Origin: Eubacterium sp. 14-2
GTDB lineage: Bacteria; Bacillota; Clostridia; Lachnospirales; Lachnospiraceae
Length of the DNA stretch: 50,000 bases
Assembly: GCF_000403845.2 (NCBI RefSeq)
Contig: NZ_KE159568.1
Span: forward strand, 1,490,728-1,540,727
Direction: 5' to 3'
This document shows positions 7,999-37,732 of the stretch, piece by piece. The first letter of the stretch is position 1, and each line of letters starts with the position of its first letter. The notes under the pieces were generated by a model that was given only the letters and a program-made list of their open reading frames with translations, made no database searches and had not been told where the DNA came from. A program made the position numbers and the translations under genes.

Positions 7999-8085
7999 AG
8001 GAAAGACCTTGTCACGCTAAAGGGTGAAAGTATCTTTCCTGTAAGATAAAAATAATATGCGCAGGGCCTGCCCACTTTGTTCTTC
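7999..8085. repeat. Dispersed hairpin repeat, copy 1 (module A plus module B)
   Basis: Module A is 7999-8073. It opens with a 42-base hairpin whose outer arms are AGGAAAGA and TCTTTCCT, with inner CTTGTCAC/GTGAAAG pairing, and continues AT-rich into ATATGCGCAGGGCCTGCCC. Module B (8065-8085) is close to GGACCTGTCCACTTTGTTCTT. Module A recurs at 37479-37553 with about 68 of 75 bases identical and in shorter form at 13769-13810. Module B recurs at 12710-12731 and 37710-37732. None of the copies encodes protein. Confidence 0.8.
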
Positions 8086-8210
8086 TATAGGAAATTCCTC
8101 TGGATTTCCTATAGAAGAAAAGACAATTATCACACTGCAGCGGAAAAGAAATATGTCGCTAAAGCGACCCGCCGCAGGCGGAGAATCCTGCAAAGCAGGA
8201 TTCTTTGTTC
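8083..8210. repeat. Cluster of perfect small palindromes next to the repeat
   Basis: Four palindromes follow one another: TTCTATAGGAAAT/ATTTCCTATAGAA (8083-8116, 13-base-pair stem), TCGCT/AGCGA (about 8156-8167), CCGCC/GGCGG (8169-8181) and AGAATCCTGC/GCAGGATTCT (8182-8204). The last is followed by TTTGTTCTGT and could act as a terminator on the plus strand. The first begins with TTCTTCTATAGGAAA, the same bases that open module A of copy 2. This fills the non-coding stretch before the AraC gene. Confidence 0.7.
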
Positions 8211-8241
8211 TGTTGCAGGAATAAATTTATACATGAAAAAA

Positions 8242-9102
8242 TCAGCCGGATCTGTCCTGGCCGGTCTGTCCTTTCCGCACAGCCGAAGGGGTACATCCGT
8301 AAATTTCCTTAAAAGTCCGGTTAAATAATTTCTGACTGGTAAATCCGTTTTCTTCCATAATTTCAGAGATGGGTGCATCCGTATTATGCAGTTCCTGGTA
8401 AATATGGGTAATCCGTATTTCATTTACATACTGCAGAAAAGAAATCCCCATATGTTTTTTAAAAAAGCGGCAGAAATATTCTCTGTTCAGACCTAGCAGC
8501 CCGGCAGCATCCTGGAGAGAAATGGGTTCCTGAAAATGTTCCCCCACATAAGTAATAATGTCCCGCAGCTTCTGACGGGTCTGCATGTGGGCAGAAGATA
8601 ATTCAGGCGCTGTTTTGTATGCAAAATGCCGCATCAGGTGAGCCAGAATCTGCAGGATAATTCCCTCAGATTCCAGCAACGACGCCGGCAGCTCCTCAAT
8701 GTAAAGGCGGGTCAGTGTCTCGGCCATCTGACAGAGGCGGAGGTATTCTTCAAACTGTGAATCAGGAATTTCATCCGGAATACAGTGAATCCGAAAAAAT
8801 TCAATGTCCGGCATATAGCGTCTCATCAGAGCTTTGGATATGTGAATGCAGAGGCACATCAGACGGTCGCTGCTGGTATTCGTGCTGTGTACCTGTTCCG
8901 ATTCTACCGCCAGAAGCTGTCTGTGCCTTAACTGGTATGTTTTTCCGTCTATGGTCACATCAGCGTCTCCGTTCAGGGGAAAAAGAAGCTCCAGTTCTTC
9001 GTGCCAGTGGAGGGGATGGTAACCTCCGGGAATGGTATGATATGCCAGCTGTATGCCGGCTTCGTTGATTTCACGGAAAATTTCATAATAAGGTTCCGCC
9101 AT
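8242..9102 (-). CDS. AraC-family transcriptional regulator with N-terminal cupin
   Basis: A 286-residue regulator. Residues about 20-95 form a cupin-type sensing sheet (YHPLHWHEELELLFPLNG, with the HxH pair of small-molecule-binding cupins). The C-terminal 100 residues are two HTH motifs of the AraC/XylS type (DAAGLLGLNREYFCRFFKKHMGISF, then ISEIMEENGFTSQKLFNRTFKE). Start is the ATG nine bases after AGGAGG. It is divergent from a 42-residue protein gene, with a palindromic AAGTC site between, so it probably activates that gene and itself. The inducer is unknown; cupin AraC proteins of gut Clostridia often sense sugars. Confidence 0.9.
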   Translation of the reverse strand: MAEPYYEIFREINEAGIQLAYHTIPGGYHPLHWHEELELLFPLNGDADVTIDGKTYQLRHRQLLAVESEQVHSTNTSSDRLMCLCIHISKALMRRYMPDIEFFRIHCIPDEIPDSQFEEYLRLCQMAETLTRLYIEELPASLLESEGIILQILAHLMRHFAYKTAPELSSAHMQTRQKLRDIITYVGEHFQEPISLQDAAGLLGLNREYFCRFFKKHMGISFLQYVNEIRITHIYQELHNTDAPISEIMEENGFTSQKLFNRTFKEIYGCTPSAVRKGQTGQDRSG

Positions 9103-9162
9103 AAATCCATGCCTCCTGTCTGCAGGTTTTTCTGGCTGAAATTATATAAAATACCGTTGAAA

Positions 9163-9228
9163 AAGTCAATATCGACTTAAAACAAGTCAAAAAACCACCT
9201 GTTTTTTCTGGCTTTGGGATAGTATGAT
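9163..9228 (+). promoter_or_regulatory. Probable AraC operator and activated promoter of the 42-residue gene
   Basis: AAGTC (9163-9167) and GACTT (9174-9178) form an inverted repeat with a 6-base centre, and a third AAGTC lies at 9184-9188. A -10 box TATGAT (9223-9228) follows with no convincing -35, as expected when an activator replaces -35 contacts. The site sits between the AraC gene and the small gene. Confidence 0.5.
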
Positions 9229-9275
9229 AGACAGCGTAAAGAGAAAACGTCTTACAGAAAAGGAGAGAAATTATT

Positions 9276-9404
9276 ATGAAAAGAATTCAGAATGCAGTAA
9301 AAAATTATATGGAAAAATATGGAGCACAGTTTGCAGCAGCAACACTGATGATGGGCGGAAATCTGAACGTGGAAATGCTCAGAAATCTTTCAGACAGAGC
9401 GTAG
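9276..9404 (+). CDS. 42-residue hypothetical protein
   Basis: A short frame starting MKRIQNAVKNYMEKYGAQ and ending MLRNLSDRA, with AAGGAGA nine bases before the ATG and a terminator 34 bases after the stop. It is predicted helical, with a basic amphipathic N-terminus and a small-residue hydrophobic centre (FAAATLMMGG). I do not recognise the family. It has the layout of a complete single-gene transcription unit: operator, -10 box, ribosome site, stop and terminator. The divergent AraC gene is the likely regulator. No signal peptide, Cys residues or double-Gly processing site argue for an ordinary secreted peptide; a membrane-active or protein-binding small protein is possible. Confidence 0.6.
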   Translation: MKRIQNAVKNYMEKYGAQFAAATLMMGGNLNVEMLRNLSDRA

Positions 9405-9437
9405 GTATACGCGGATGAACGTACAGAAGAGAGAAAG

Positions 9438-9488
9438 AAAAACAGGGATGATTTTTGGAAGATAACCATAAATTGTCCCTGTTTTTTC
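9438..9488 (+). terminator. Terminator after the 42-residue gene
   Basis: AAAAACAGGGA (9438-9448) pairs with TCCCTGTTTTT (9476-9486). The A-tract before and T-tract after make it able to work in both directions. Confidence 0.8.
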
Positions 9489-9595
9489 TTATACAGGAAA
9501 ATACTTTAATTGAAAGACTGAAAGTGTTTTCCTGCAGAAGAAAAAAGCTCTTATGGCACTCGTGCAAAAAGTAAAATTCTTTTTTGAACAGACGA

Positions 9596-9623
9596 TTGTA
9601 ATTTTAAACTACAGTGATATAAT
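9596..9623 (+). promoter_or_regulatory. Promoter of the cytidylate-kinase-like gene
   Basis: TTGTAA (9596-9601), a 16-base spacer and a perfect TATAAT (9618-9623), 45 bases before the chosen start. Confidence 0.6.
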
Positions 9624-9667
9624 AATTCTATAACGTGTTTGAAAAAGTTCAGATGAGGAGTGATACT

Positions 9668-10246
9668 ATGATTATTACAATTGGCAGGGAGTTTGGAAGT
9701 TATGGTCATGTGATTGGACGCCAGCTTGCAAAGAAACTGAATATCAGATATTACGACAAGGACTCCATGGCAGAAGAGGCAAGAAGAATGAACAAATATG
9801 ATGAGCTGCGGGACTTTTACGAAGAACAGCCCATCAACAGCCTGCTGTATGTAATTGCAACAGACAGCAGATCTCAGGGACAGCGAAAGGTTCCTTTTGA
9901 ATTTATAAAGAACCTGGCAGAGAGAGAGGACTGTGTGATTGTGGGAAGGTGCGGGAACTATATTCTTAAGGATCATCCGGATATGACCAGCGTGTTTATT
10001 CATGCACCCAAAGAATACCGCATAGACAAAACAGCCGCAGACCGGAAAATCAGCACGGATAAAGCCAGAAGGCTGGTGGAAAAGGAAGATAAGGCCAGAG
10101 CCGGATTCCATTCTTATTATGCCGATGAGAAATGGAATGAATGCGACGGATATCATCTTACTATTGACAGCAGTGTGATCAGTTTGGACGATGCTGTGGA
10201 TCTTATCATTGATTTTGTCAGCAAAAGACAGAACAGTAAAAATTAA
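9668..10246 (+). CDS. Cytidylate-kinase-like family protein
   Basis: A 192-residue P-loop-fold protein of the cytidylate-kinase-like family common in Clostridia. It starts MIITIGREFGSYGHVIG, an altered P-loop in which the usual GSGGRxIG of the family has Tyr and His. The core includes IRYYDKD near residue 33, a CVIVGRCGNYIL strand near 97 and KARAGFHSYYADEKW near 138 (LID-like). Nucleotide kinase activity is inferred from fold; substrates of this branch are poorly defined. The frame is open 33 bases upstream, but the ATG seven bases after GAGGAG gives the family-typical N-terminus. The MATE exporter gene follows after 11 bases. Confidence 0.85.
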   Translation: MIITIGREFGSYGHVIGRQLAKKLNIRYYDKDSMAEEARRMNKYDELRDFYEEQPINSLLYVIATDSRSQGQRKVPFEFIKNLAEREDCVIVGRCGNYILKDHPDMTSVFIHAPKEYRIDKTAADRKISTDKARRLVEKEDKARAGFHSYYADEKWNECDGYHLTIDSSVISLDDAVDLIIDFVSKRQNSKN

Positions 10247-10257
10247 AGGAAGTCAAT

Positions 10258-11631
10258 ATGGCGTTGATAAGTAAAAATCAGACAGCGGACCTGGGGAAAG
10301 ATCCTGTGGGAAAACTGTTGTTAAAACTGGCGCTGCCGGCAATTCTGGCCCAGGTAGTGAATATGCTTTATAATATTGTGGACCGCATCTACATCGGCCA
10401 TATTCCGGGTACAGGAGCCATTGCACTGACGGGAATCGGTTTATGTCTGCCGGTGATTCTGATGATTATGGCTTTCAGTGCACTGGTGGGAATCGGGGGA
10501 GCGCCCAGAGCAGCTATTTATATGGGAAAGCAGGATATGGAAGGGGCCAGGAAGACGCTGGGAGCCTGCGTGGTAATGCTGACAGGCCTTGCGGTGCTGC
10601 TCACACTGTTTTTTCTGTTTGCCGGAAAAGAACTTCTGTTTCTGTTTGGGGCCAGTGAGAATACCATTTCCTATGCCTGGGGCTATCTGCGTATTTATGT
10701 GTGCGGAACCGTATTTGTTATGCTGGCCATTGGGCTGAACAGTTTCATTACAACACAGGGATTTGCCATGGAAGGTATGGCTACCATACTGATAGGGGCC
10801 CTGCTGAACATTGTACTGGATCCGATTTTTATTTTCGGTTTCCATATGGGAGTGGCAGGAGCAGCCCTGGCCACCATTCTTTCTCAGGCGGTATCGGCAG
10901 TGTGGGTACTGCGGTTTCTAAGGGGCAGGAAAACAAAACTGCGGATACAGAAACAGTACCTGAAGCTGAAAAAAGAATATGTGGCTCCGGTTCTGGCCCT
11001 TGGCATATCGCCTTTTGTGATGCAGAGCACCGAAAGCCTGATTAATATATCCTTTAATACCTCCCTTTATCGGTATGGCGGCGACCTGGCAGTTTCTTCC
11101 ATCACGATTCTGGGCAGTGTGATGCAGATGATTTTCCTGCCTCTCAGCGGCCTGACGCAGGGAGCCCAGCCCATTGTCAGCTACAATTACGGAGCCGGAA
11201 ACGATGAACGTGTAAAAAAGACCTATCGGCTGCTGCTGTGCTGCTGCGGGATTTTTGCCACTTCAGCCTGGATACTGGTGATGGCGGTTCCGGGCGTATT
11301 CGTAAAAATATTCAACAGCAGTTCACAGGAGCTGTATGAAATGGCCAGCTGGGGGATGCGGTTTTATATAGCGGGAGCCTTTGCCATGGGGCCTCAGATG
11401 GCGTGCCAGCAGACATTTCTGGCGCTGGGACAGGCAAAGGTGTCACTGTTTTTCGCCTGCTTTCGAAAGCTGATCCTGATGATACCGCTGATTTTTATCC
11501 TTCCGGTGTTTCTGGAAAATAAGCTGATGGCAGTGTTTCTGGCAGAGGCAGTTTCTGATTTTGCTGCCGGAGTGGCCACTACTGCCGCATTTTTGATACT
11601 GTTTCCGAAAATTCTGCAGAGAGAACGGTGA
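10258..11631 (+). CDS. MATE-family multidrug/cation antiporter
   Basis: A 457-residue exporter with about 12 hydrophobic helices in two similar halves (MatE domains about 20-180 and 240-400). N-half signatures are LPAILAQVVNMLYNIVDRIYIGHIPG and the C-half has TQGAQPIVSYNYGAGN, typical of the bacterial NorM/DinF-like branch. It expels organic cations or drugs in exchange for Na+ or H+; the cargo cannot be read here. The ribosome site AAGGAAG is well spaced. Cotranscribed with the kinase-like gene before it. Confidence 0.92.
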   Translation: MALISKNQTADLGKDPVGKLLLKLALPAILAQVVNMLYNIVDRIYIGHIPGTGAIALTGIGLCLPVILMIMAFSALVGIGGAPRAAIYMGKQDMEGARKTLGACVVMLTGLAVLLTLFFLFAGKELLFLFGASENTISYAWGYLRIYVCGTVFVMLAIGLNSFITTQGFAMEGMATILIGALLNIVLDPIFIFGFHMGVAGAALATILSQAVSAVWVLRFLRGRKTKLRIQKQYLKLKKEYVAPVLALGISPFVMQSTESLINISFNTSLYRYGGDLAVSSITILGSVMQMIFLPLSGLTQGAQPIVSYNYGAGNDERVKKTYRLLLCCCGIFATSAWILVMAVPGVFVKIFNSSSQELYEMASWGMRFYIAGAFAMGPQMACQQTFLALGQAKVSLFFACFRKLILMIPLIFILPVFLENKLMAVFLAEAVSDFAAGVATTAAFLILFPKILQRER

Positions 11632-11680
11632 TGAGAAAATGCGCTGATGGAAAAGTAAAGTAAATAAATAGAAGGGAAAT

Positions 11681-12688
11681 GTGAGTAAGATGAGAAAAGT
11701 TCTGAAAAAAATATGTTTGCTGGCGCTGGCGGTATCTCTTTGCATAAGTGTGGCGCCCGCTGACGTTCAGGCGGCAGGCAGTAAAGGCATTAATGTAAAG
11801 TACCATTCAAAAAGTGAAATCCGCCGCTATCTGAAATCAAAGAAAATTGATATTAACGAGAAGGTGAAATTCAGCAAAGCGCCGAAGTTAAAAGCCCCCT
11901 ATTCCGCAGGAAAGATAGATAAGAAAAGTCTGAAATCCGCCTTAAAGACCTTAAATGCCATCCGTTACATTGCCGGAATCAATGATAATGTAAAACTGGA
12001 TGACAATTATACAAAAAAGGCCCAGGCGGCAGCTCTGATTAATTGCGTGAACAACAGTATGAGCCATTATCCGGTCAAACCCTCCGGAATGAGCCAGTCT
12101 CTTTATCAGCTGTGTTATTCCGGAGCCGGCAGCAGTAACCTTGCAACATCATTCGGAGGTCCTGCGGGGCTGAATTATCCGCTGGTCAGAATGTGGATGT
12201 ATGACGGAGACCAGGGTAATATTCCACTGGTAGGCCATCGCCGCTGGATTTTAAACCCGCCTATGAAAAAAACAGGGTTCGGTTTTGTATCCGGAACGGA
12301 AAAATGGGCGTCTTCTTATTCCGCCATGTATGCCATAGATAATGCATTCGGAAAATCATCGTATTACGGTGTTGCCTGGCCGGCTCAGAACATGCCGCTG
12401 GAATTTTTCGGAGATTCTTATCCCTGGAGCATCAGTATGGGAAGAGAACTGAATGCAGACAAAGTAAAAGTGGTACTGACCAGAAAAAAAGACGGAAAAA
12501 AATGGACCTTTTCAAAAAACAACAGGAAATATGGGTATTTTAATGTGGAAAACAATAATTACGGAGCCAAAGGCTGTATTATCTTCCGTCCCAATAATAT
12601 TTCCTATCGTTCCGGGGACCAGTTTCAGGTAAAAATCACAGGCGCAGGAAAAGCAATTTCCTATCAGGTGAATTTTTTCTCCCTGTAA
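11681..12688 (+). CDS. Secreted CAP-domain (SCP-like) protein
   Basis: A 335-residue exported protein. The N-terminus has a basic start and hydrophobic core (LLALAVSLCISVAPADVQA), a signal peptide cut probably after the Ala-rich end. The middle, residues about 90-215, is a CAP domain: LNAIRYIAGINDNVKLDDNY, AALINCVNN and GHRRWILNPPMKKTGFG, where the GHRxxIL segment is diagnostic. A beta-rich C-terminal tail follows. CAP domains occur in many bacterial surface proteins with mostly unproven roles. The start may be GTG at 11681 (ribosome site four bases away) or ATG at 11690; the signal peptide is the same. A strong terminator lies downstream. Confidence 0.85.
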   Translation: MSKMRKVLKKICLLALAVSLCISVAPADVQAAGSKGINVKYHSKSEIRRYLKSKKIDINEKVKFSKAPKLKAPYSAGKIDKKSLKSALKTLNAIRYIAGINDNVKLDDNYTKKAQAAALINCVNNSMSHYPVKPSGMSQSLYQLCYSGAGSSNLATSFGGPAGLNYPLVRMWMYDGDQGNIPLVGHRRWILNPPMKKTGFGFVSGTEKWASSYSAMYAIDNAFGKSSYYGVAWPAQNMPLEFFGDSYPWSISMGRELNADKVKVVLTRKKDGKKWTFSKNNRKYGYFNVENNNYGAKGCIIFRPNNISYRSGDQFQVKITGAGKAISYQVNFFSL

Positions 12689-12709
12689 AAACCGGGGGAG
12701 GAATTAAAA

Positions 12710-12731
12710 CGGACCTGTCCACTTTGTTCTT
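12710..12731. repeat. Dispersed repeat module B, isolated copy
   Basis: CGGACCTGTCCACTTTGTTC plus TT. It matches the end of repeat copy 3 (37710-37732) with one mismatch and copy 1 (8065-8085) with a few. It stands alone here, without module A, immediately before the CAP-gene terminator. Confidence 0.65.
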
Positions 12732-12742
12732 GTTTTATGGAA

Positions 12743-12786
12743 AAAACCGTGCTATAATGTCTACAGATATTATAGTGCGGTTTTTA
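12743..12786 (+). terminator. Strong terminator after the CAP-protein gene
   Basis: AAAACCGTGCTATAAT (12743-12758) pairs along 16 bases with ATTATAGTGCGGTTTT (12769-12784), with only two G-T wobbles, then continues in T residues. A TTGTTT-17-TATAAT promoter-like pattern (12730-12758) overlaps its first arm and could serve the next gene, but the hairpin explains the bases better. Confidence 0.8.
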
Positions 12787-12873
12787 TATTGTGGGATGAT
12801 AAAGGTAACAGAAACGGGAAAACCTGCAATGGGATAAGATTTACGAGTTGCCGGGGAAAAGGAGAAGATAATT

Positions 12874-13701: not shown

Positions 13702-13730
13702 GGTATTGTGTGAAAAATGACTGACAGGAA

Positions 13731-13760
13731 GCAGCAAGGTACAAAAGCCTTGCTGTTTTT
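13731..13760 (+). terminator. Terminator after the PocR/chemoreceptor gene
   Basis: CAGCAAGG (13732-13739) pairs perfectly with CCTTGCTG (13748-13755) over an 8-base loop, then TTTTT. Confidence 0.85.
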
Positions 13761-13762
13761 AT

Positions 13763-13810
13763 TCTTCTATAGGAAAGACCTTGTCACGCTAAAGTACGAA
13801 AGTATCTTTT
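13763..13810. repeat. Dispersed hairpin repeat, copy 2 (truncated module A)
   Basis: TTCTTCTATAGGAAAGACC, then TTGTCACGCTAAAG and GAAAGTATCTTT, matching the first 39 bases of module A in copies 1 and 3. The match stops before the final CCT and the AT-rich tail. It begins three bases after the T-run of the preceding terminator. Confidence 0.7.
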
Positions 13811-13883
13811 GTTGCGGTACAATCCGTCTACGGACGGTGAACAGGCTGTGATGAACAGGAAAGGCATCGGAAGGAGAACAGAA

Positions 13884-15014: not shown

Positions 15015-15112
15015 TTTTTATGAAAATGTTTATCATGTGAAACTGGCTGCAGGGTCTTTTTGCTGTGGAAGCCAGGGAATTTTGCAGTAATATAAACAAC
15101 AGGAAAGGATAA

Positions 15113-16336
15113 GTGAAAACCATGGATTACAGAACATATTTAAGAAATTATCCCAGTAAAGAAGGAAGATTCGGGGAATACGGCGGCGCCTATCTGTCTG
15201 AGGAGCTGAAACCGGCTTTTGAGGAAATTACGGAAGCATATCAGACTATCTGCCATTCGTCACAGTTTATCAACGAACTGCGGAGAATCCGCAAAGAATT
15301 TCAGGGAAGGCCGACGCCGGTATACCACTGTGAGCGGCTTTCCCGGAAGATTGGCAACTGTCAGATTTATCTGAAACGCGAGGATCTGAACCATACAGGC
15401 GCTCACAAGCTGAACCACTGTATGGGAGAAGGTCTGCTGGCCAAATTTATGGGAAAGAAACGCCTGATTGCAGAGACAGGTGCCGGACAGCATGGTGTGG
15501 CGCTGGCAACAGCGGCCGCCTACTTCGGACTGGAATGTGAAATTCATATGGGAGAGGTGGATATTGCAAAACAGGCGCCGAATGTTACACGCATGAAAAT
15601 CCTGGGGGCAAAGGTGGTGCCCGTAAGCCATGGGCTGAAAACTCTGAAAGAAGCCGTGGACTCCGCCTTTGATTCCTATGCCAGAAATTATAAAGATTCC
15701 ATTTACTGTATCGGTTCTGCTCTTGGGCCCCATCCCTTCCCCCTGATGGTTCGGGATTTTCAGTCTGTGGTAGGATATGAAGCAAGAGATCAGTTCCGTG
15801 AAATGACAGGCATTGATCCGGATGTGGTATGTGCCTGCGTGGGCGGCGGCAGCAACTCTATCGGCATGTTTATTCCGTTTCTGAACGACCCTGTTGACAT
15901 TGTGGGAGTGGAGCCTCTGGGAAGAGGCGAGAAACTGGGAGACCATGCAGCCTCCATGAAATACGGAGAGAAAGGCGTTATGCATGGATTTGAAAGTATT
16001 ATGCTGAAGGATGAGGCAGGGGAGCCGGCGCCGGTATATTCTATTGCCAGCGGGCTGGATTACCCTTCCGTAGGGCCGGAACATGCATTTTTGCATGATG
16101 AGGGAAGAATTCAGTATGAGACCGCAGGAGATGAGGAAGCCATGGAAGCCTTCTTTAAACTGTCCCGTTATGAAGGTATTATTCCCGCTGTGGAAAGCTC
16201 CCATGCAGTTGCCTGGGCCATGAAAAAAGCCAGGGAAATGGGACAGGGTTCGATTCTGGTGTGTCTCAGCGGCAGAGGCGATAAAGACATTGATTATGTA
16301 GTGGAACACTATGGTTATGGTGAACAGTTTTTATAA
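15113..16336 (+). CDS. trpB: Stand-alone tryptophan synthase beta-chain-like PLP enzyme
   Basis: TrpB condenses indole and serine to tryptophan with pyridoxal phosphate. Key elements are visible: the PLP Lys in HTGAHKLNH near residue 100, the catalytic Glu in [11 protein letters not shown] near 122, and the phosphate loop [11 protein letters not shown] near 245. Length is 407 residues, normal for TrpB. The usual HKTNxxLG is HKLNHCMG here, and no trpA or other trp gene is adjacent, so this may be a free-standing beta chain that salvages indole or uses a related substrate. Start GTG at 15113 lies just after AGGAAAGGAT; ATG at 15122 is the alternative. The next gene starts 15 bases after its stop. 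Confidence 0.8.
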
Positions 16337-16351
16337 AAACGGCGGTGAAAG

Positions 16352-18040
16352 ATGATTTCAGATAAACTGTATGAACTTGCGTTTGAATATAAGAAAAGAA
16401 AGTTGTGGAAAATCCTCTGGGATTTGCAGCTTTTTGGGGTAAAACTGTCCGATGGCAGAATCGGTTACATCAGTATTATGGGGGCGGCAGGAGAGCATTG
16501 CGCCCTGGGCCTTTATGTTGGCGATGAAGGCATGGAAAGTTTCCGTACCATAGCCAGAGCCAACAGATATCAGCTTTCCCCTCTGGAATTTCAGGAGCAT
16601 CTGCTGCAGCAGAATTGTCTGCAGTGTGCCTTTGAGGGGAAAAATGAACTGTCGGAACAGGAGCTTGAGGAAGCCAGGGCTTATGCCCGTGCACATGATA
16701 TCAGGATTTCCGGAAAAAATGCCTATCCCCAGTTTGTGAAATATCAGTCCAACCACTATCCCTGGCATCTGCAGACAGAACAGGAGCAGGAACTCCTCTG
16801 TCAGGCATTGCAGGCAGCCATTGAGCTGTCGGAAATTCTGAAAAGCACCACGCCCATTGCGTTGGGACTGGCGCCGGTAAATGACCTTACAGAAGAGATT
16901 CTGATGCTGGAACCCGGTGAAAAGGGTTTTGTGCTGACCAGTACAAAACTTCCCTGTATAAAGCCGAAAAAGTGGCCGGCGCCCAAAGCCGGCAATGATA
17001 TCGGCATAGCCAGCCTGAAACGGATGGAACGGATGGGGGTATGGGAATGTGAGCTGCTCCGGTTTCCGGAGCCTGTTCGGAACAAACCGGAAGAAATTCC
17101 CTATTTCCCCATTATTCTGCTGGCAGTGGAGTCCTCCACAAATTATATCCTTCCGGTGCCTCCGGTGGAACATTATGAAGATAATCCGGAAGAATTGCTG
17201 AATCTGTTTATGGAATCTCTTCAGCAGCAGAAAATATGTCCGGACCGGATAAAAGTACGGGACCAGCGTACCGCTGCATTTGTGAAAGCCTTTTGCAGCA
17301 GGCTGAAAATCACTGTCAGTATGGAAAAAGAACTGCCTGCACTGGAGACTGCGGAAGCTGATTTTCTGAAACATTTTTCCATGAGCGAAGAGGAAGAAAT
17401 GGATGAAATGATTCAGATGATGGAAACGATACTGGAACTGAATAAAGAACAGGTGGAAAGTCTGCCGGAAAACATGGTGGAACAGATTGACATGATTCTG
17501 GAACAGGGGATTTTGCCGGAGGAACTGGAGTGGAAAGTCAGGCGTCTTCTGCATCCGGAACTGGCTGATAACCGGCCGGACAAATCGGCGTTTCGAACTG
17601 TAAAGTCCGGGAGAGACCATTCCTATGTAATCAGTGTTTCCCTGGGAACAGGATGTTACCGCCATATCCGGATTTCCGGCAGAAGTACACTGTGGGATCT
17701 ACACAGCATTATACTGGAAGCCTTTGGGTTTGACGACGACCATGCCCATGCATTTTTCATGGATAATGTGCAGTGGAGCCGCCGGAACTGCTATTTTATG
17801 AGGGATATGGAAATGGAATACGATGGTCCGTCCACAGAGGAATGCAGCCTGGACCGGGCAGGTCTGTGCAAAGAGAAACAGTTCAAATTTCTGTTTGATT
17901 TCGGAGATGAGTGGCTGTTCCAGTGCAAAGTGCTCCGGGTATTGAAAGAAGGCACCGAAGAACCGGAAATTATCAAAAGCAAAGGGGAGGCGCCAAAGCA
18001 GTATCCCGACTGGGAGGAGGATGACTGGGAAGGCGAGTGA
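16352..18040 (+). CDS. Plasmid pRiA4b ORF-3-like protein with N-terminal DUF6930/DUF7309-like regions
   Basis: A 562-residue cytoplasmic protein. The last 150 residues match the pRiA4b ORF-3 fold: YVISVSLGTGCYRHIRISG, LWDLHSIILEAFGFDDDHAHAF and FKFLFDFGDEWLFQCKV, with the acidic DWEEDDW end. The first 330 residues contain two alpha/beta regions I place tentatively in the uncharacterised DUF7309 and DUF6930 groups, followed by an acidic coiled segment (EEEEMDEMIQMMETILE). Its biochemical function is unknown. It starts 15 bases after the TrpB stop and ends 17 bases before the double-HTH regulator, so it may share a transcript with both. Confidence 0.7.
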   Translation: MISDKLYELAFEYKKRKLWKILWDLQLFGVKLSDGRIGYISIMGAAGEHCALGLYVGDEGMESFRTIARANRYQLSPLEFQEHLLQQNCLQCAFEGKNELSEQELEEARAYARAHDIRISGKNAYPQFVKYQSNHYPWHLQTEQEQELLCQALQAAIELSEILKSTTPIALGLAPVNDLTEEILMLEPGEKGFVLTSTKLPCIKPKKWPAPKAGNDIGIASLKRMERMGVWECELLRFPEPVRNKPEEIPYFPIILLAVESSTNYILPVPPVEHYEDNPEELLNLFMESLQQQKICPDRIKVRDQRTAAFVKAFCSRLKITVSMEKELPALETAEADFLKHFSMSEEEEMDEMIQMMETILELNKEQVESLPENMVEQIDMILEQGILPEELEWKVRRLLHPELADNRPDKSAFRTVKSGRDHSYVISVSLGTGCYRHIRISGRSTLWDLHSIILEAFGFDDDHAHAFFMDNVQWSRRNCYFMRDMEMEYDGPSTEECSLDRAGLCKEKQFKFLFDFGDEWLFQCKVLRVLKEGTEEPEIIKSKGEAPKQYPDWEEDDWEGE

Positions 18041-30137: not shown

Positions 30138-30146
30138 TCTGGAGTG

Positions 30147-30293: not shown

Positions 30294-30300
30294 AATCAAA

Positions 30301-30316: not shown

Positions 30317-30328
30317 AAGGAGGTTATC

Positions 30329-31159: not shown

Positions 31160-31177
31160 GGAAGGAAGGTGGCAGGA

Positions 31178-33052
31178 ATGGCGAAAAAAGAAGAAACACG
31201 GTTCCAGGAACGTATGAACCGCCATATAGAGGAGCTGCGGTGGCTGTACATGGAACTTTATGACAATGAATCCATGTTTGCAGAACTGTGCCAGAATCTG
31301 TATGAATTTGCTCTGAATCGTCCTGAGGCATTGAAAAAGCAGGATCTGGAGAGGGAAGCGGATCCGGAGTGGTATAAGTCCAACGCCCTTACGGGGATGA
31401 TGATGTATATTGATAATTTTGCCGGGAATCTGAATGGGCTGAGGGAAAAGCTGTCTTACATTCAGCAGACAGGCGTAAATCTTCTCCATCTGATGCCTTT
31501 TCTGGACACGGTGCCCGGCCGCAGCGACGGTGGTTATGCGGTGGCAGATTTCCGCAAAGTGCGTTCCGATCTGGGGACAATGGAGGATCTGGAGAAACTG
31601 TCCGCACTCTGCCATAAAAAAGGCATTAACCTGTGCATGGACTTTGTAATGAACCATACCAGCCAGGACCATGAATGGGCAAAAAGAGCCCGTCAGGGAG
31701 AAGGGGAGTACATGAGCCGGTATTTCTTTTTTGCTGATCCCTCCATACCGGCAGAATATGAGAAAACCGTACCCCAGGTTTTTCCCACTACTGCCCCGGG
31801 AAATTTCACATGGCTGGATGACTGCAGGCACTATGTAATGACTTCATTTTATCCATATCAGTGGGATTTAAACTATCAGAATCCCAGGGTATTCAATGAA
31901 ATGATGTATAATTATCTTTTCCTGGCAAATAAGGGCATTGATATGATTCGCATTGACGCTGTGCCGTACATATGGAAGGAACTGGGGACCGACTGCCGCA
32001 ACCGCCCGCAGGTTCATACTATTGTCCGTATGATGCGGATGATAGGCGAGATTGTCTGCCCAGGCGTGATACTGCTGGGAGAAGTGGTTATGGAACCGGT
32101 AAAGGTAGTGCCTTACTTTGGCAGTATAGAAAAACCGGAGTGCCATCTGCTGTACAATGTGACCACCATGTGCACCACATGGCATACGGTGGCCACCAGG
32201 GATACCCGTCTGCTCCGCAGGCAGCTGGATACGGTAAATGCCCTGCCCAAAGAGTATGTGTTTCTGAATTATCTCCGCTGCCATGATGACATTGGCTGGG
32301 GGCTGGATTATGATTGGCTTCACCGGAATTTCGGTACAGATGAAATACTCCATAAGCGGTATCTGAATGATTATTTTCAGGGATATGCAGGTAACAGTAC
32401 CAGCAGAGGAGAGCTTTACAATGATGACAGTACCAGCGGGGATGCAAGGCTCTGCGGTACCACAGCCAGTCTTTGCGGTATCGAAAAAGCGGGATTTGAG
32501 CAGGATCATGAGGCAATGGAACGGGCGGTACAGTTTGACCTGACACTGCATGCCATGATGTTCATGCAGACCGGCATTCCCATGCTGTACAGCGGGGATG
32601 AACTGGCGCAGGTAAATGATTACAGTTATAAGGAAGATCCCAAAAAGGCAGATGACAGCCGTTATCTTCACCGGGGCAGGCTGAGATGGGAACAGGCAGA
32701 ACATATGCACGATCTGGAAACCCCTGAGGGGAAAGTGTTCTGCGGAATGAATGCACTGGTTGCACTGCGGGGAACCTCCCCGGCTTTTGGAACTGAGGCA
32801 GATGTGTGGACTCTGGATACCGGTGACGAAGGGCTGCTGGCTGTGGGACGGTATGCACAGGGGCAGAAAATCATCGGTGTATTCAATTTCACAGAGTGGG
32901 AAAAGAAAGTTACATTTCCTCATGATCCGGGTGAATTTACAGACATGCTGACGGGTGAGACTCATGTGCTGCAGGATTTTTCCGTACCGGCTTATGGTTT
33001 TTGTTATCTGGAACAGATGAAAGGGGGAAGCAGAGTTGGCCATCATCATTGA
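31178..33052 (+). CDS. Amylosucrase-like GH13 glucosyltransferase/hydrolase
   Basis: A 624-residue GH13 protein. It has the N-terminal helical domain characteristic of amylosucrases (residues 1-75), then a barrel with SDGGYAVADF near 110 and DFVMNHTS near 155. The catalytic nucleophile is Asp260 in DMIRIDAVPYIWKE, the acid/base Glu302 in LLGEVV and the stabiliser Asp371 in RCHDDIGW. This resembles GH13 subfamily 4 rather than the shorter sucrose phosphorylases. Amylosucrase splits sucrose and transfers glucose; in a PTS locus the true substrate may be a phosphorylated sucrose. A GTG nine bases upstream lies on the ribosome site, so ATG is used. Its end overlaps the GH36 start by 17 bases. Confidence 0.85.
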   Translation: MAKKEETRFQERMNRHIEELRWLYMELYDNESMFAELCQNLYEFALNRPEALKKQDLEREADPEWYKSNALTGMMMYIDNFAGNLNGLREKLSYIQQTGVNLLHLMPFLDTVPGRSDGGYAVADFRKVRSDLGTMEDLEKLSALCHKKGINLCMDFVMNHTSQDHEWAKRARQGEGEYMSRYFFFADPSIPAEYEKTVPQVFPTTAPGNFTWLDDCRHYVMTSFYPYQWDLNYQNPRVFNEMMYNYLFLANKGIDMIRIDAVPYIWKELGTDCRNRPQVHTIVRMMRMIGEIVCPGVILLGEVVMEPVKVVPYFGSIEKPECHLLYNVTTMCTTWHTVATRDTRLLRRQLDTVNALPKEYVFLNYLRCHDDIGWGLDYDWLHRNFGTDEILHKRYLNDYFQGYAGNSTSRGELYNDDSTSGDARLCGTTASLCGIEKAGFEQDHEAMERAVQFDLTLHAMMFMQTGIPMLYSGDELAQVNDYSYKEDPKKADDSRYLHRGRLRWEQAEHMHDLETPEGKVFCGMNALVALRGTSPAFGTEADVWTLDTGDEGLLAVGRYAQGQKIIGVFNFTEWEKKVTFPHDPGEFTDMLTGETHVLQDFSVPAYGFCYLEQMKGGSRVGHHH

Positions 33053-35297
33053 TGAAAACTGCGGGGTTTTTACATTGCATACCAGAAATTCCACCTATCA
33101 GATGAAGGCGGATTTCCGGAATCTCCTGCTCCATACATATTATGGTGAAAAAACGGATAACAGTGACAAATCTCTTTTGCTCTTTCAGACAGACAGAGGT
33201 TTTTCAGGTAATCCATACGAAATGGGGAAGCGTGACAGGACATATTCCATGGATTCCCTTCCACAGGAATACAGCAGTTTCGGTACGGGAGATTACAGGA
33301 TAACTTCCCTGAGAGTGCAAAACGGAGACGGAAGCCAGGGGGCGGATTTGCGCTATACCGGATATCAGGTGCAGAAAGGAAAATATGGGATTCCAGGTTT
33401 GCCGGCCGTATATGCGGAAGATGAAGAGGCGGAAACGCTGATTATCCGGCTGGAAGATTCATATTCCCGTATGGAGGTGGAGCTTTATTATGGGATACTG
33501 GAAGAGTTGGATATTATCACCAGAGCGGTAAAAATAACAAATGGGGGAATCGAAGATATTATTTTAAAGAAAGCAGCCAGTATGAACCTTGACTGGGAAT
33601 ACGGTGATTTTGAGATGGTATCTTTTTATGGCAGGCACTGCATGGAGATGAACTTTCAAAGAGAGGAAATCCATCATGGCATACAGGCTGTCGGAAGCAT
33701 CAGAGGAGCAAGCAGCCATCAGTATAATCCTTTTGTCCTTTTGTGTGAAAAAGGCTCGGATGAAAGGATGGGGAGCTGTTATGGTTTTTCCTTTGTCTAC
33801 AGCGGAGAGTTTCTGATAGAAGCGGAAAAAGATCAGATTGACAGAACCAGACTGATCTGCGGGATTCATCCGGATAATTTTTCATGGAATTTAAGCAGCG
33901 GCGATACGCTCTGGCTTCCTGAGGTGATTATGTCCCACAGCGGGAGCGGCACAGGCAGGGTAAGCAGGAATTTTCATAAAGTAATCCGGGAGCATATCTG
34001 CCGGGGAGAATGGAAAAACAGGCGGCGGCCGATTTTGATTAATAACTGGGAAGCAACTTATTTTAAGTTTACCGGAGATAAACTGATTGCCATTGCGAAA
34101 GAGGCAAAAAAACTGGGAATTGAATTATTTGTAATGGATGACGGCTGGTTTGGAAAAAGGGAAGACGACAATTCCAGTCTGGGCGACTGGGTTCCCAATG
34201 AAAAGAAACTTGGCTGTACATTAAAAGAACTGGCAGAACGAATTGTAGCGGAAGGGATACAGTTTGGCATCTGGCTGGAGCCGGAAGGGATATCTGAGGA
34301 CAGCGACCTGTACAGAAACCACCCGGACTGGGCGGTGGGGGTACCCGGCAGAAAGCCATGCCTGAGCAGAGGCCAGCTGATTCTGGATTTCTCCAGAAAG
34401 GATGTGCAGGACTACATCATAGAGCAGATTTTCGATTTGCTGGATGGGATACCCGTTACTTATGTGAAATGGGATTGCAACCGGGCAATCTGTGATAAAT
34501 TCAGCAGGATGCTGGATAGCAGCAGGCAGGGAGAATTTTCACACAGATATGTGCTTGGGCTGTACAGGGTGCTGGAGGAACTGACAGAAAGATTCCCGAA
34601 GATTCTGTTTGAAAGCTGCAGCGGCGGAGGCGGGCGGTTTGATGCCGGAATGCTCTTTTATACGCCGCAGATCTGGGCCAGTGATACAACAGATGCGATT
34701 GAGAGGCTGAGTATTCAGTACGGCGCATCTTTTGGCTATCCGGTTTCTGTAATGGGAACACATGTTTCCATGGTTCCGAATCATCAGACCGGACGGGTGA
34801 CGCCCCTTTCCACCAAAGGGTGCATGGCAATGGCAGGCACATTCGGCTATGAACTGGACATTGATAAACTGACACAGGAAGAAAAAGCGGAGATAAAGGA
34901 ACAGACAGATGTATTTAAAAAGCATTATGATTTGATACAGCACGGAGATTATTACAGGATATCCAGTCCCCTTGAAGGCACATGTACCGTATGGGAGATT
35001 GCGGACCCGTCCGGTGGAGAGGCGCTGGTCAGCGCAGTATATCATCATGTGCAGGCAAATCCTGTGCCGGTCAGGGTAAAGGTACAGGGGTTAAAGGATG
35101 AGGCAGACTATCAGCTTTACCTGAATGAAAATTTTGAAGAAAAATATCCCGGAAAACGGCTGCCCCACGGGTTTGCTTCCGGCGAAGTGATAAGCGGCGC
35201 TTCATTAAGGCAGTTTGGATTTGTGGTTCCGGAGGCCATGAACGGATTTCAGGCATGGCAGATTTATATAAAAGAGTGTTCATGCTCCTGTGAATAA
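33036..35297 (+). CDS. GH36 alpha-galactosidase
   Basis: A 753-residue cytoplasmic alpha-galactosidase that releases galactose from melibiose, raffinose or related sugars. An N-terminal beta-supersandwich (1-330) precedes a TIM barrel. FVMDDGWFG near 367 and LEPEGISEDSDLY near 414 belong to the substrate pocket. The nucleophile is Asp480 in YVKWDCNRAI and the acid/base Asp550 in IWASDTTDAIERL, the positions usual for GH36. Start is TTG at 33036 with AAGGGGGAAG before it; it gives the common MAII N-terminus. It overlaps the GH13 gene, so the two are coupled. Most likely acts after PTS entry on a (possibly phosphorylated) alpha-galactoside. Confidence 0.93.
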   Translation: MAIIIDENCGVFTLHTRNSTYQMKADFRNLLLHTYYGEKTDNSDKSLLLFQTDRGFSGNPYEMGKRDRTYSMDSLPQEYSSFGTGDYRITSLRVQNGDGSQGADLRYTGYQVQKGKYGIPGLPAVYAEDEEAETLIIRLEDSYSRMEVELYYGILEELDIITRAVKITNGGIEDIILKKAASMNLDWEYGDFEMVSFYGRHCMEMNFQREEIHHGIQAVGSIRGASSHQYNPFVLLCEKGSDERMGSCYGFSFVYSGEFLIEAEKDQIDRTRLICGIHPDNFSWNLSSGDTLWLPEVIMSHSGSGTGRVSRNFHKVIREHICRGEWKNRRRPILINNWEATYFKFTGDKLIAIAKEAKKLGIELFVMDDGWFGKREDDNSSLGDWVPNEKKLGCTLKELAERIVAEGIQFGIWLEPEGISEDSDLYRNHPDWAVGVPGRKPCLSRGQLILDFSRKDVQDYIIEQIFDLLDGIPVTYVKWDCNRAICDKFSRMLDSSRQGEFSHRYVLGLYRVLEELTERFPKILFESCSGGGGRFDAGMLFYTPQIWASDTTDAIERLSIQYGASFGYPVSVMGTHVSMVPNHQTGRVTPLSTKGCMAMAGTFGYELDIDKLTQEEKAEIKEQTDVFKKHYDLIQHGDYYRISSPLEGTCTVWEIADPSGGEALVSAVYHHVQANPVPVRVKVQGLKDEADYQLYLNENFEEKYPGKRLPHGFASGEVISGASLRQFGFVVPEAMNGFQAWQIYIKECSCSCE

Positions 35298-35347
35298 AAA
35301 AGAATGTAATTTATACATTAATATATTTTAAGAAAGGAAGTATTATT

Positions 35348-35608
35348 ATGAAAAAATTTGAGTACACCATTAACGATCCTGTAGGTATCCATGCACGTCC
35401 TGCCGGCATGCTGGCTAAGGCAGCAAAAGCGCTGGACAGCACTGTCACCATTGTCACAGCAACAGGCAGTTCTGCCACAGCTTCCAAACTTATGGCTCTC
35501 ATGGGGCTGGGAATTAAGCAGGGCGATACGGTATCTGTTATCCTGGAAGGAGGCGACGAGGAGGCTAACGCAGCTGTTATGGAACAGTTCTTTAAGGATA
35601 ATCTGTAA
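35348..35608 (+). CDS. ptsH: HPr phosphocarrier protein, operon-specific copy
   Basis: An 86-residue HPr that carries phosphate from Enzyme I to the EIIA domain. The active-site His15 is in VGIHARPAG. The regulatory Ser region reads ATASKLMALMGLGIKQGD. Anchored on the LMxLG part, the place of the usual Ser46 is taken by Lys and the Ser is one position earlier, so HPr-kinase control may be lost; the count from the N-terminus still puts a Ser at 46, so this is not certain. It lies between the GH36 gene and Enzyme I with AAGGAAG before the ATG. Probably dedicated to the EIIBCA of this locus. Confidence 0.93.
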   Translation: MKKFEYTINDPVGIHARPAGMLAKAAKALDSTVTIVTATGSSATASKLMALMGLGIKQGDTVSVILEGGDEEANAAVMEQFFKDNL

Positions 35609-35627
35609 GTGACATAAGGAGGAAAAT

Positions 35628-37283
35628 ATGATCTTAATACAGGGAAAAGGTGTTTCAAAAGGAGTTGCAAGCGGCCCGATCTGTTTCTTTCAGCGTCCGG
35701 GAATTACAATTACAGATGCTCCTGCTTCCGATCCTGAGACGGAAAAGGCACGTATTACCGCTGCTCAGGAAAAATCCATTGCTCAGCTGAATGCCCTGGC
35801 TGAAAAGGCCCGCGAGGAAACAGGAGATGAGACGGCACTTCTCTTTGAAACCCATGCCATGTTTGTGGAAGATGAGGATTATGTGGAATGCATGATGGAC
35901 ACTCTGGCAGAGGAAAAGTGTACTGCGGAACGGGCAGTGGAAATTGCCGGTGAAAAATTTGCAGGCATGCTGGCTGCCATGGATGATGCCTATATGCAGG
36001 CAAGGGCTGCAGATATCAGAGATATAACCCGTCGTATACTCAATAACCTTATGGGCGTTGTTGAGGGAGGCATTGATTCTGAAGTGCCGGTGATACTGGC
36101 TGCTGATGACCTGGCGCCGTCTGAGACAATCCAGCTTGACAAAAGTAAAATCCTTGGATTTATTACACAGGGCGGATCAGGCAACAGCCATACGGCTATT
36201 CTGGCACGTACCATGGGTATCCCCGCCATTTCAGGGTTGGGTGACGCGCTGAAAACGGAACTGGGCGGACGGATGGCCTACATAGACGGGGAAACCGGAC
36301 AGGTGGCAGTTGAACCGGATGATATTACCCTGGCGGCCTTTTAGGCAAAATACGAAAAACAGCAGGAAATAAAAGAGCTGATGCAGACTATGAAAGGGCA
36401 GGAGGATGTGACGCTGGATGGCAGGAAGATTATGCTTTACTGCAACATTGGCTCTCCGGAAGACGTAACGGCTGTCCTGTCCAATGATGGCCAGGGAATC
36501 GGCCTGTTCCGTTCAGAGTTTTTATATCTTGCTTCTGATGATTATCCTTCTGAGGAAGATCAGTTCCAGGCTTATAAAGAAGTGGTTACTGCTATGGAAG
36601 GCAAAAGAGTGGTCATCCGCACCCTGGACATTGGCGCTGATAAGCAGGTGGATTATTTTGAACTCCAGAAAGAGGAAAATCCTGCATTGGGCGTGCGTGC
36701 AATCCGCATCTGCCTGAACCGGCCGGAAGTATTCCGTACCCAGCTGCGCGCTCTGTACAGAGCCTCCGCTTACGGGAAAGTTGCAATTATGTTCCCTATG
36801 ATTACCTCCGTGTGGGAAGTGAAAGAATGCAAACGTGCATGCCAGAAAGTAATGGCTGAACTGGACGCGGAAGGCGTTCCCTACCGGAAAGACACGGAAA
36901 TTGGTATCATGATTGAGACGCCGGCTTCCATTCTGGTTGCGGAGGAACTGGCAAAAGAGGTTGACTTTTTTTCAGTGGGGACAAATGATCTGACACAGTA
37001 TACCCTGGCATGTGACCGGCAGGCCAATGACCTTGGCAAGTTTTTTGACCCCCATCATCCGGCGGTTTTGAGGGCGTTAAAGATTGCCGCAGATGCTGCA
37101 CATAAAGCAGGTATCTGGATAGGTATCTGCGGAGAACTGGGGGCGGATCTGTCATTGCTGGAAACTTTTCTGGCCATTGGAATTGATGAGCTTTCCGTAT
37201 CGCCTGCTTCGGTACTGCCGCTTCGGGCTCAAATCCGTCAGGCCATTGCCAGAACATGTACGTTGGAACTGCTGGAATGCTGA
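35628..37283 (+). pseudogene. ptsI: PTS Enzyme I gene interrupted by an in-frame TAG at 36342-36344
   Basis: Enzyme I takes phosphate from phosphoenolpyruvate and passes it to HPr. Frame one codes the N-terminal half: HPr-binding helices and the phosphorylated His188 in GGSGNSHTAILAR. TAG is codon 239, after DDITLAAF. The same frame continues AKYEKQQEIKELMQ and the full PEP-binding barrel, with FRSEFLYL, IRTLDIGADK, FSVGTNDLTQYTLACDR and the catalytic Cys in GICGELGAD (codon 501). No base is lost or gained; one nonsense codon separates the halves. All catalytic residues are intact. It may be a fresh nonsense mutation, a sequencing error, read-through, or two working polypeptides. Length without the stop is 550 residues, near the normal 575. 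Confidence 0.85.
36381..37283 (+). CDS. Possible separate Enzyme I C-terminal (PEP-binding) polypeptide
   Basis: After the in-frame TAG the next ATG in frame, 36 bases on, would give a 300-residue protein starting MQTMKGQEDVTLDG. It includes the whole PEP-binding and dimerisation barrel of Enzyme I. The region before it has AGGA at about 14 bases and AGAG at 4 bases, neither ideal, so independent initiation would be weak unless coupled to termination at the TAG 36 bases upstream. Listed because the break falls exactly in the inter-domain helix linker and both halves are complete domains. Confidence 0.4.
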   Translation: MQTMKGQEDVTLDGRKIMLYCNIGSPEDVTAVLSNDGQGIGLFRSEFLYLASDDYPSEEDQFQAYKEVVTAMEGKRVVIRTLDIGADKQVDYFELQKEENPALGVRAIRICLNRPEVFRTQLRALYRASAYGKVAIMFPMITSVWEVKECKRACQKVMAELDAEGVPYRKDTEIGIMIETPASILVAEELAKEVDFFSVGTNDLTQYTLACDRQANDLGKFFDPHHPAVLRALKIAADAAHKAGIWIGICGELGADLSLLETFLAIGIDELSVSPASVLPLRAQIRQAIARTCTLELLEC

Positions 37284-37437
37284 ATGCCCGTCCATGCTTT
37301 TGGGACTGTTCCCGGAGGGCAGAATTCTGCTCTCCGGAAACAGCTAAAAAACAGCGAAACAGAAGATATGGAAATGGAAGAACAGATATGGATAAATTGA
37401 AAATTCGGGAAAACATGGCAGGTACATCCTGCCTGAA

Positions 37438-37474
37438 AAGTCAGCCTGCTTTAAGTGGACTGGCTTATTTTTTT
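37438..37474 (+). terminator. Terminator of the sugar operon
   Basis: AAGTCAG (37438-37444) pairs with CTGGCTT (37460-37466) with one wobble, then ATTTTTTT. It follows the Enzyme I stop by 155 bases; no gene is seen between. Confidence 0.6.
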
Positions 37475-37478
37475 CTAC

Positions 37479-37732
37479 AGGAAAGACATTGTCACGCTAA
37501 CGCGTAAAAGTATCTTTCCTATAAAATAAAAATAATATGCGCAGGGTCTGCCCCGGCGAAGCGAGGGTACTCGCACAGGAGGTAAAATATTGCTTCGCAA
37601 TTGTGCTAAAACGCGATACGTTCAGCATACTGCGTATGCTCTGACGCACCGCAAATGGCGCAGCAAAGTGTCCAGGTCCCTCATGAGTGAGGAATTCAGG
37701 GAGCCCCTGCGGACCTGTCCGCTTTGTTCTTC
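37479..37732. repeat. Dispersed hairpin repeat, copy 3 (modules A and B with an insert)
   Basis: Module A (37479-37553) has the 42-base hairpin AGGAAAGA...TCTTTCCT, then the AT-rich tail and ATGCGCAGGGTCTGCCC, about 91 percent identical to copy 1. Module B, GCGGACCTGTCCGCTTTGTT plus CTTC, ends the unit at 37732. About 155 bases lie between A and B here, while in copy 1 they join directly. The insert carries small palindromes such as AGCATAC/GTATGCT (37624-37640). The rest of the stretch up to 37943 is AT-rich and shows no gene. Confidence 0.8.

Follow-up and report, generated by a model that had tools for sequence, protein, structure and literature searches.

Hairpin elements in the window

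The window analysed here, a 50,000-nucleotide stretch of the Eubacterium sp. 14-2 genome, carries hairpin-forming elements and remnants of them on the plus strand, the first lying behind the terminator of a tRNA-Cys gene. Read from the sequence, the features are as follows:

7959..7983, + strand: host intrinsic terminator stem 3' of tRNA-Cys (CCCCGGAAAT...ATTTCCGGGG), the target of E1
7992..8082, + strand: E1, a minimal element consisting of the left hairpin (module A), AAAAATAATATGCGCA and the terminator-like end GGGCctGCCCACTTTGTTC (module B)
8083..8210, + strand: E2, chained onto the tail of E1, with hairpin subtype AGGAAATTCCTCTGGATTTCCT, body CACACTGCAGCGG... and end hairpin GAATCCTGCaaaGCAGGATTC-TTTGTTC
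12710..12729, + strand: lone right-end remnant (module B), CGGACCTGTCCACTTTGTTC
13765..13812, + strand: truncated left end (module A) directly 3' of the terminator GCAAGG...CCTTGC-TGTTTTTATTC
37473..37729, + strand: E3, a long element with the module A hairpin, a multi-hairpin body and the end CGGACCTGTCCGCTTTGTTC (module B)

The left end of E1 was set by the left-end rule given below, with an extra T before AGG as an uncertainty of 1 nt. The remnant at 12710 has a near-identical counterpart in the relative G025 (L164); the truncation at 13765..13812 is also present in G025, and G026 has a different remnant.

The original prediction had described a two-module hairpin family. Its A copies at 7999-8073 and 37479-37553 are indeed identical at 68/75 positions, the copy at 13769 is truncated, and module B was recovered at 8065, 12710 and 37710, with the copy at 8065 (GGGCCTGCCCAC) differing from the predicted B by two stem-preserving changes. 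The supposed fusion of A and B in the first copy, on the other hand, turned out to be a chain of two elements (7992-8210), and the hairpin put at 42 bases is longer, because its outer arm extends further left towards the T tract.

Further copies had been anticipated and are abundant. The 22-nt core of A matches the genome at 83 places with ≤3 mismatches, compared with none for a reversed control pattern, and a blastn search with positions 7985-8220 of the window gave 77 matches, pieces included; a chance origin is therefore excluded. The distribution is patchy within the genus (20/29 genomes) and rare in the family (6/200 genomes, two of them with only 1-3 inexact matches). One genome from another family of the same order also carries the element according to an order-wide covariance-model search, which is insensitive (17 candidates scored per listed genome, and 17 copies recovered in G000 itself). 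The label "lineage-specific" thus holds loosely, for the concentration in this genus, and fails as a restriction to one genome or family. Rfam gave no match above the gathering score at the elements, only weak ones far below threshold, and no description of the repeat was found in the open-licence PMC literature, subscription papers lying outside that scope.

Two ends of one element, placed after terminators

Module A is the left end and module B the right end of a single small element; they are not two families. This follows from a clean insertion, in which a 90-nt A...B element in G025 lies at TTTTTTATTTA|TCATAC and an identical empty site is found in G026 and G000, an empty orthologous site of the kind that the original prediction had proposed to look for. 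At this one site the target is not duplicated, apart from a 2-nt ambiguity (TC). Over the 3 kb to its left, G025 equals G000 at 3011/3011 positions, with G026 set apart at 98.8%; the simplest account is therefore that G025 gained the element recently. Movement is slow, since 19/20 comparable A matches of G025 (≤5 mismatches) are common to G026. This is the only clean insertion: among 20 G000 copies compared with G025 and G026, both gains and losses are seen, at ~10–15% divergence and with most junctions inexact. In a case of loss (L010), the relative retains the tail CTTTGTTC. Judged by eye, an A-type hairpin is kept at 6/15 listed G000 sites and absent at 8/15 orthologous places, and the bodies differ between genomes at the same place.

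Where they could be delimited, elements are 90-257 nt long. The left end reads T[CT][TC]TA[TC]AGGAAAG and opens the long hairpin, and the right end is a terminator-like hairpin followed by TTTNTTN; in some elements, body hairpins have been lost between short direct repeats. MITEs (PMC2229807) are likewise short, protein-less and present in many copies. A MITE of a DDE transposon was rejected, as the left end (TCTTATAGG) and the right end (CTTTGTTC) do not form an inverted-repeat pair, and the one clean site has no target duplication beyond the 2-nt ambiguity.

Near-identical copies at unrelated sites place the left end at TTTNTTN|T. Across 48 such pairs (37 copies), mismatch is 2–21% at positions -1 to -6, 69% at -7 and 65–81% from -14 to -24, and this jump sets the element start at -6; among 15 disjoint pairs, none differ at -6 and 9 do at -7. 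The element's own right end is likewise TTTNTTN|T: GAATCC-type right ends read TTTNTTN in 31/33 cases and are near-random beyond one further T, and B ends read TTTGTTC with random sequence afterwards (50 ends). The comparison of G000 with G025 and G026 offers only one other usable left junction (L008), which reads TTTTTA|T.

A terminator stem occupies the left flank of 111/162 copies, compared with 11/162 mononucleotide-shuffled flanks and 24/434 other T6 tracts, and the element has the orientation of the host terminator. The heptamer TTTNTTN stands at the left flank of 93/162 copies versus 0.36% of positions, the other 69/162 being without an exact match, some owing to a 1-nt shift. The upstream gene is on the same strand for 85/105 copies (338/499 for all nearby ORFs), which together with the stems bears out the predicted intergenic position, often after a terminator. 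Since target and right end share the form TTTNTTN|T, both the terminator targeting and the head-to-tail chains are explained; behind 31/81 B tails lies a further hairpin. As to replication, 73/86 copies lie on the G-rich strand. A replication-strand preference was discarded, as the bias (17/21 elements, two weak matches left out) equals that of genes (396/504) and adds no evidence.

Taken together, we consider it probable (roughly 60%) that this is a small mobile element, non-autonomous and with defined ends, that inserts in one orientation into "hairpin + TTTNTTN|T". Of the identities originally suggested, a non-autonomous mobile element is the one that agrees with the copy number, the lack of a recurrent linked protein (see below) and the clean presence/absence site in three genomes.

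The fold of the hairpin and rival routes of spread

The arms of the A hairpin covary. Among 76 deduplicated hairpins, position -7, which was not used in their selection, is paired in 55 compared with 30 by permutation; pairing counts at -1 to -6 are inflated because the hairpins were selected on those positions. In 16 of the 27 pairs that differ at -7 the partner base is the same, and the pairing there could stem from post-insertion palindrome correction instead of target choice. Arm mispairs are nearly symmetric, with G·T : A·C at 28:23 and 44:43 (72 versus 66 in total), whereas tRNAs from the same sequence gave 12:1. Lacking the G·T excess of tRNAs, the hairpin looks maintained as DNA and not as an RNA fold. 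The original view that the fold matters is upheld by the covariation, with the qualification that it would matter as DNA; the mispair symmetry speaks against a small RNA family, as G·U is not tolerated above A·C on the transcribed strand in the way expected of a structured RNA.

The same counts bear on a reading in which the repeat is not selfish: the host would maintain it as a regulatory or small-RNA element, for instance to stabilise 3' ends or as a backup terminator, and its spread would be due to duplication and selection. Its position at gene 3' ends, the strong hairpins, the terminator-like tails and the retention of orthologous A-type hairpins (6/15 sites by eye; 19/20 between G025 and G026) would suit such a role. 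The patchy presence in the genus, the absence at 8/15 orthologous places, the clean gain in one genome, the differing bodies at the same place and the symmetric G·T/A·C counts make it improbable.

We judge equally improbable a SINE-like RNA route, by which the reverse transcriptase of a group IIC intron would take a transcript ending at the element's own terminator and copy it into another terminator. Group IIC introns, too, insert after terminators; they recognise gene-terminator hairpins together with short IBS1/IBS3 sequences (PMC3898094). The element shares the terminator hairpin as target, ends in a terminator-like hairpin with a T tract and has a fixed orientation relative to the terminator. 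It is, however, far too short for such an intron and without ribozyme domains detectable by Rfam; its arms lack the G·U bias of the tRNA control, and Rfam scans for group II introns were negative in the 50-kb window (at 7960-8240 also with E up to 5) and in the 280 kb covered of a 400-kb block of this genome.

The search for a mover, and related systems

Clustering of the 717 ORFs of ≥80 aa that lie within ~3 kb of the 162 copies brought out no recurrent linked gene. The largest cluster (7 loci) is ABC transporter ATPase-like, and nothing transposase-like appeared among the 14 listed clusters, judged by sequence starts. This genome (G000) has 0 matches to Y1_Tnp. A Y1/RAYT transposase was rejected as the mover, given its absence from G000, the lack of tracking with copy number in the genus and the differing ends of the TnpA elements read.

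A related possibility, which we consider unlikely, is that the repeat derives by degeneration from an IS200/IS605-type element and is moved in trans by a TnpA of the genus. Elements of this group and their internally deleted forms have subterminal hairpins, a short conserved flank and no duplication (PMC6006769), and the element resembles them in its end hairpins, conserved 5' flank, lack of duplication (from the one clean site), T-rich target flank and possible guide pairing. Moreover, G025, with the fresh insertion, has 7 TnpA copies, and G026 and G000 have none. Against this, none of the autonomous TnpA elements examined was seen to share its ends with the repeat. When 24 TnpA loci from the genus were scanned for the motifs, only L350 had an A-like site, and there the A hairpin is the flank that the IS entered; B-like sites turned up at L350 and L362. 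At 16 of the 24 loci the TnpA ends were also read by eye, and they differ from both A and B. Six copy-rich genomes (G000, G009, G013, G018, G024 and G026) are without Y1_Tnp, while G001, G007 and G008 have 5, 3 and 5 TnpA copies and no element. The geometry differs as well, the IS608 guide being placed 5' of the hairpin foot (PMC6006769) and the complementary tract lying 3' of the hairpin here; the target is a terminator, not a bare tetranucleotide.

REP/REPIN sequences with their RAYT (PMC3733652) are extragenic hairpins proposed as miniature mobile DNA. The suggestion that the repeat is REP-like failed where tested: the A-hairpin consensus (TTTNTTNT..TATAGGAAAG) has no GTAG or CGTC tag, the hairpin exceeds 20–40 nt and the genome has no RAYT/Y1 gene.

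For the mobile element favoured here, movement would probably proceed through hairpin DNA and be carried out by an enzyme. The host target "hairpin + TTTNTTN|T" is the form of an intrinsic terminator. A putative enzyme recognising "hairpin + TTTNTTN" at the right end may mistake host terminators for the element's own end, with single-stranded (hairpin) DNA as the transposing form, and the A-rich right arm (GATAAAAA) may pair with the T-rich target and help target choice. More tentatively, and with the odds against it, this could be an undescribed transposition system whose enzyme reads "DNA hairpin + TTTNTTN", so that every intrinsic terminator counts as an element end, and in which a terminator mimic docks on terminators, forms chains with its own copies and finds its target when its A-rich arm pairs with the T tract there. 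If the mover does recognise terminators by structure, this would be an unusual targeting for a protein-less element, giving a safe harbour after genes via mimicry; the element also suggests how head-to-tail repeat chains may arise.

The pneumococcal BOX, RUP and SPRITE repeats (PMC3049150) are similar. They are small, dispersed, hairpin-forming and intergenic, BOX is also modular and SPRITE terminator-like, their strand bias resembles the coding bias, and they are enriched between convergent genes. Many short bacterial repeats have no established ends, target or mover. For the element described here, in contrast, both ends and the TTTNTTN target are defined, as is its docking on terminators, and with ends and target given at base resolution the spread of such repeats becomes testable.

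Element copies and their anatomy

Modules A and B, originally predicted as parts of a dispersed hairpin repeat family, are best explained as the left (hairpin) and right ends of one small non-autonomous mobile element (90-257 nt where delimited) that docks in one orientation onto a hairpin plus TTTNTTN|T (| marks the junction), probably via hairpin DNA, an overall reading to which we assign a probability of about 0.62. The three A and three B copies lie where they had been placed, with 68/75 identity between the first and third A copies, and one pair of elements in the window is chained, E2 being docked onto the tail of E1:

7992..8082, + strand: element copy E1
8083..8210, + strand: element copy E2

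The E2 hairpin (window 8089-8110) differs in its inner part (AGGAAATTCCTCTGGATTTCCT), with outer arm and ends unchanged; further hairpin subtypes, e.g. AGGAAATACCGTGTTAC..., are present in relatives. Searching the whole 3.99-Mb genome (G000) yielded 83 matches to the 22-nt A core at ≤3 mismatches and none to its reversed control, while window 7985-8220 as blastn query gave 77 genome matches, pieces counted. Rfam returned nothing above threshold over the elements. Elsewhere, the window carries three tRNAs, a 23S rRNA gene whose end occupies 1-1623, and a T-box leader at 42687-42967 (RF00230, 105.5 bits).

Our copy set comprises 162 distinct copies (38 from G000, 8 from its relative G025 and 116 from elsewhere), including orthologues; 102 loci entered through the exact 22-mer. 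Across this set, conservation begins 13 nt left of AGG, and the conserved part runs TTTNTT N T[CT][TC]TA[TC] AGGAAAGACCTTGTCACGCTAANGCGTGAAAGTRTCTTTCCT, left-arm complement, AAAAATAATATGCGCA; the body that follows varies, and the element closes with an end resembling a terminator. With strict patterns and some short loci, 50/162 copies showed a B end within 450 nt downstream, 25/162 a GAATCC end and 87/162 neither; the core-to-end distance has a median of 176 nt in the 75 copies with a recognised end.

Junctions and insertion sites

To map the left end, near-identical elements occupying unrelated sites were compared in 48 pairs, which come from 37 copies and are not independent. Counting leftwards from AGG, mismatch was 2-21% at -1 to -6, 69% at -7, 21% at -8, 0% at -9, 48% at -10, 8-27% at -11 to -13 and 65-81% at -14 to -24; in 15 disjoint pairs, differences numbered 0 at -6 and 9 at -7. 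Judged by this profile, the element begins at -6, with -7 to -13 belonging to the host under a TTTNTTN constraint. On the right, B-type ends stay conserved up to and including CTTTGTTC, then fade (50 ends without a following hairpin), and 31/33 GAATCC-type ends carry TTTNTTN, followed by T in 74% of the 19 without a following hairpin and by near-random sequence beyond. Together, left-flank profile and right-end conservation show that both junctions read TTTNTTN|T, which explains the head-to-tail chains: another hairpin directly follows 31/81 B ends and 14/33 GAATCC ends. The two N of the right-end motif are usually complementary (TTTCTTG 16, TTTGTTC 8, TTTTTTA 4; n = 33).

The copies had been described as intergenic and often following a terminator, and both points hold. 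A stem (score ≥14) ending at the T tract accompanies 111/162 copies, compared with 11/162 shuffled flanks and 24/434 other G000 T6 tracts, and 105 of the 107 copies with a usable flank are intergenic, two overlapping a called ORF (the 55 copies without flank are left out). Element and upstream gene share a strand in 85/105 copies, against 338/499 for nearby ORFs. Orientation along the G-rich strand in the G025 block (elements 17/21, genes 396/504) equals the gene bias and therefore adds no evidence.

Between G025 and a second relative, G026, 346 kb of aligned pieces (identity 90.6-99.98%) were compared. The G025 block holds 23 A matches (≤5 mismatches), 20 within compared stretches; 19 of these have a positional counterpart in G026 and one has none, and G026 carries one extra 5-mismatch match (C1:17393) without a G025 counterpart. 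The search for empty sites produced one clean case, a 90-nt G025 element (TCTTATAGG...ATGCGCAGGGTCTGCTCACTTTGTTC) that is absent from G026 and G000, whose empty sites are identical. It is flanked by TTTTTTATTTA (left) and TCATAC (right), and its site follows the hairpin GTTGGC-ATTT-GTCAGC. Over the 3 kb on its left, G025 equals G000 (3011/3011), with 36 differences in G026; over the 3 kb on its right, G025 is closer to G026 (99.0%) than to G000 (98.0%). Because loss would need two identical events whichever flank is used, recent gain in G025 is the simpler explanation. Overall, these are very probably copies of a mobile element inserted at terminators. G000 also contains patches 98-99.7% identical to G025/G026 (window 15094-17000; G000:C2 about 1449000-1457000) within sequence otherwise mostly 80-91% identical; these patches and the 100% identical 3-kb stretch beside the clean insertion reflect recent recombination or transfer between species.

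Among 15 further G025 loci, 11 were colinear with G026 throughout the sequence available, two were unmatched, L314 was rearranged, and L323, a single copy in G025, is a tandem of two in G026. A separate set of eleven loci was colinear too, but the G026 sides of most of these had been pre-selected for the repeat. When 20 G000 copies were sought in G025/G026, both flanks were found in at least one genome for 18; the 15 sites printed, classified by eye, comprise eight without the element (L003, L008, L010, L012, L013, L014, L025, L026), six with an A-type hairpin and one unclear. At L010, CTTTGTTC remains at the relative's junction, which makes this absence look like loss.

The body, too, changes at orthologous sites: at the copy 1 site, G025 lacks 56 nt present in G026 between ATGCGCA repeats. 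A 31-nt loss in G026 falls between GCTGYGC repeats. The modules originally described as standing alone are explained by this turnover. A GNAT-like acetyltransferase gene (identified by eye) lies between inverted element copies in G025 (C1:3363930-3364690; L179) and G026 (C44; L118), and looks captured between repeats; G000 has one degenerate element copy at this position.

Pairing of the hairpin arms

The original prediction held that the fold matters. Pairing indeed covaries, but the arms are without the G·T excess of tRNAs, which speaks against an RNA fold. In 76 deduplicated hairpins, selected by pairing at -1 to -6, pairing exceeded permutation at -7 (55 vs 30.2) and -8 (68 vs 61.4), with no excess over chance left of -8; two-sided changes (T-A/C-G) at -4 and -5 fall inside the selection zone. 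In 40 hand-chosen hairpins, RNAalifold identified 16 pairs and two-sided changes in 7 of them. Mispairs (G·T/A·C) numbered 28/23 in the outer and 44/43 in the inner arm (110/162 copies), and 12/1 in the acceptor stems of 25 distinct control tRNAs. Since G·T and A·C are thus about equal in the arms, whereas selection on an RNA strand should favour G·U, pairing looks to be maintained in the DNA itself, either through hairpin DNA or through template-switch correction of the palindrome. The latter would be expected to leave palindromic cores such as those of L005 and L213 (viral/phage contig, 11104), which are perfect, and L055, one mispair short. Position -7 is host sequence and yet covaries with the arm, so pairing either takes part in target choice or arises by correction after insertion. 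Of the 27 pairs that differ at -7, 16 have the same partner base, and pairing is therefore no strict requirement. A hairpin-DNA mechanism with an unknown enzyme is a tentative proposal, to which we give slightly less than even odds.

Distribution and candidate movers

At least 102 stretches of genome contigs hold an exact copy of the 22-mer, and the 80 titles listed are mostly 'Lachnospiraceae bacterium', besides Eubacterium, Roseburia, Clostridium and Choladousia. Within the genus, 20/29 genomes match at ≤2 mismatches (20-83 copies in 13, 1-10 in 7) and 9/29 do not. At family level, 6/200 genomes (199 genera) match, G133 and G171 with 1-3 inexact matches only. An insensitive covariance-model search at order level found 2/295 genomes, G000 and G483; the latter, a member of another family, has two copies, identical over the displayed length, behind two different terminators.

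Y1_Tnp, considered as the mover, occurs in 18/29 genus genomes, unrelated to copy number, and had 0 matches in G000. No recurrent protein was found next to element copies. Group II introns use the same type of target, terminators, according to one study (PMC3898094); none were seen in the window or in 280 kb of G000. The element belongs among short non-autonomous repeats, an already known kind; no description of its TTTNTTN|T target rule was found in the open-licence PMC literature searched.

The scan of 24 TnpA loci gave an A and B match beside the IS at L350 and a B-like match at L362; in the 16 loci inspected by eye, the TnpA element ends were unlike A/B. At L350 (G002:C22, 9500-11800), an A hairpin has its left arm interrupted by the IS200-type TnpA element, which sits in a terminator's T tract (junctions TTTTTTATT|IS|CTATAGG) and is a second kind of element at the same spot.
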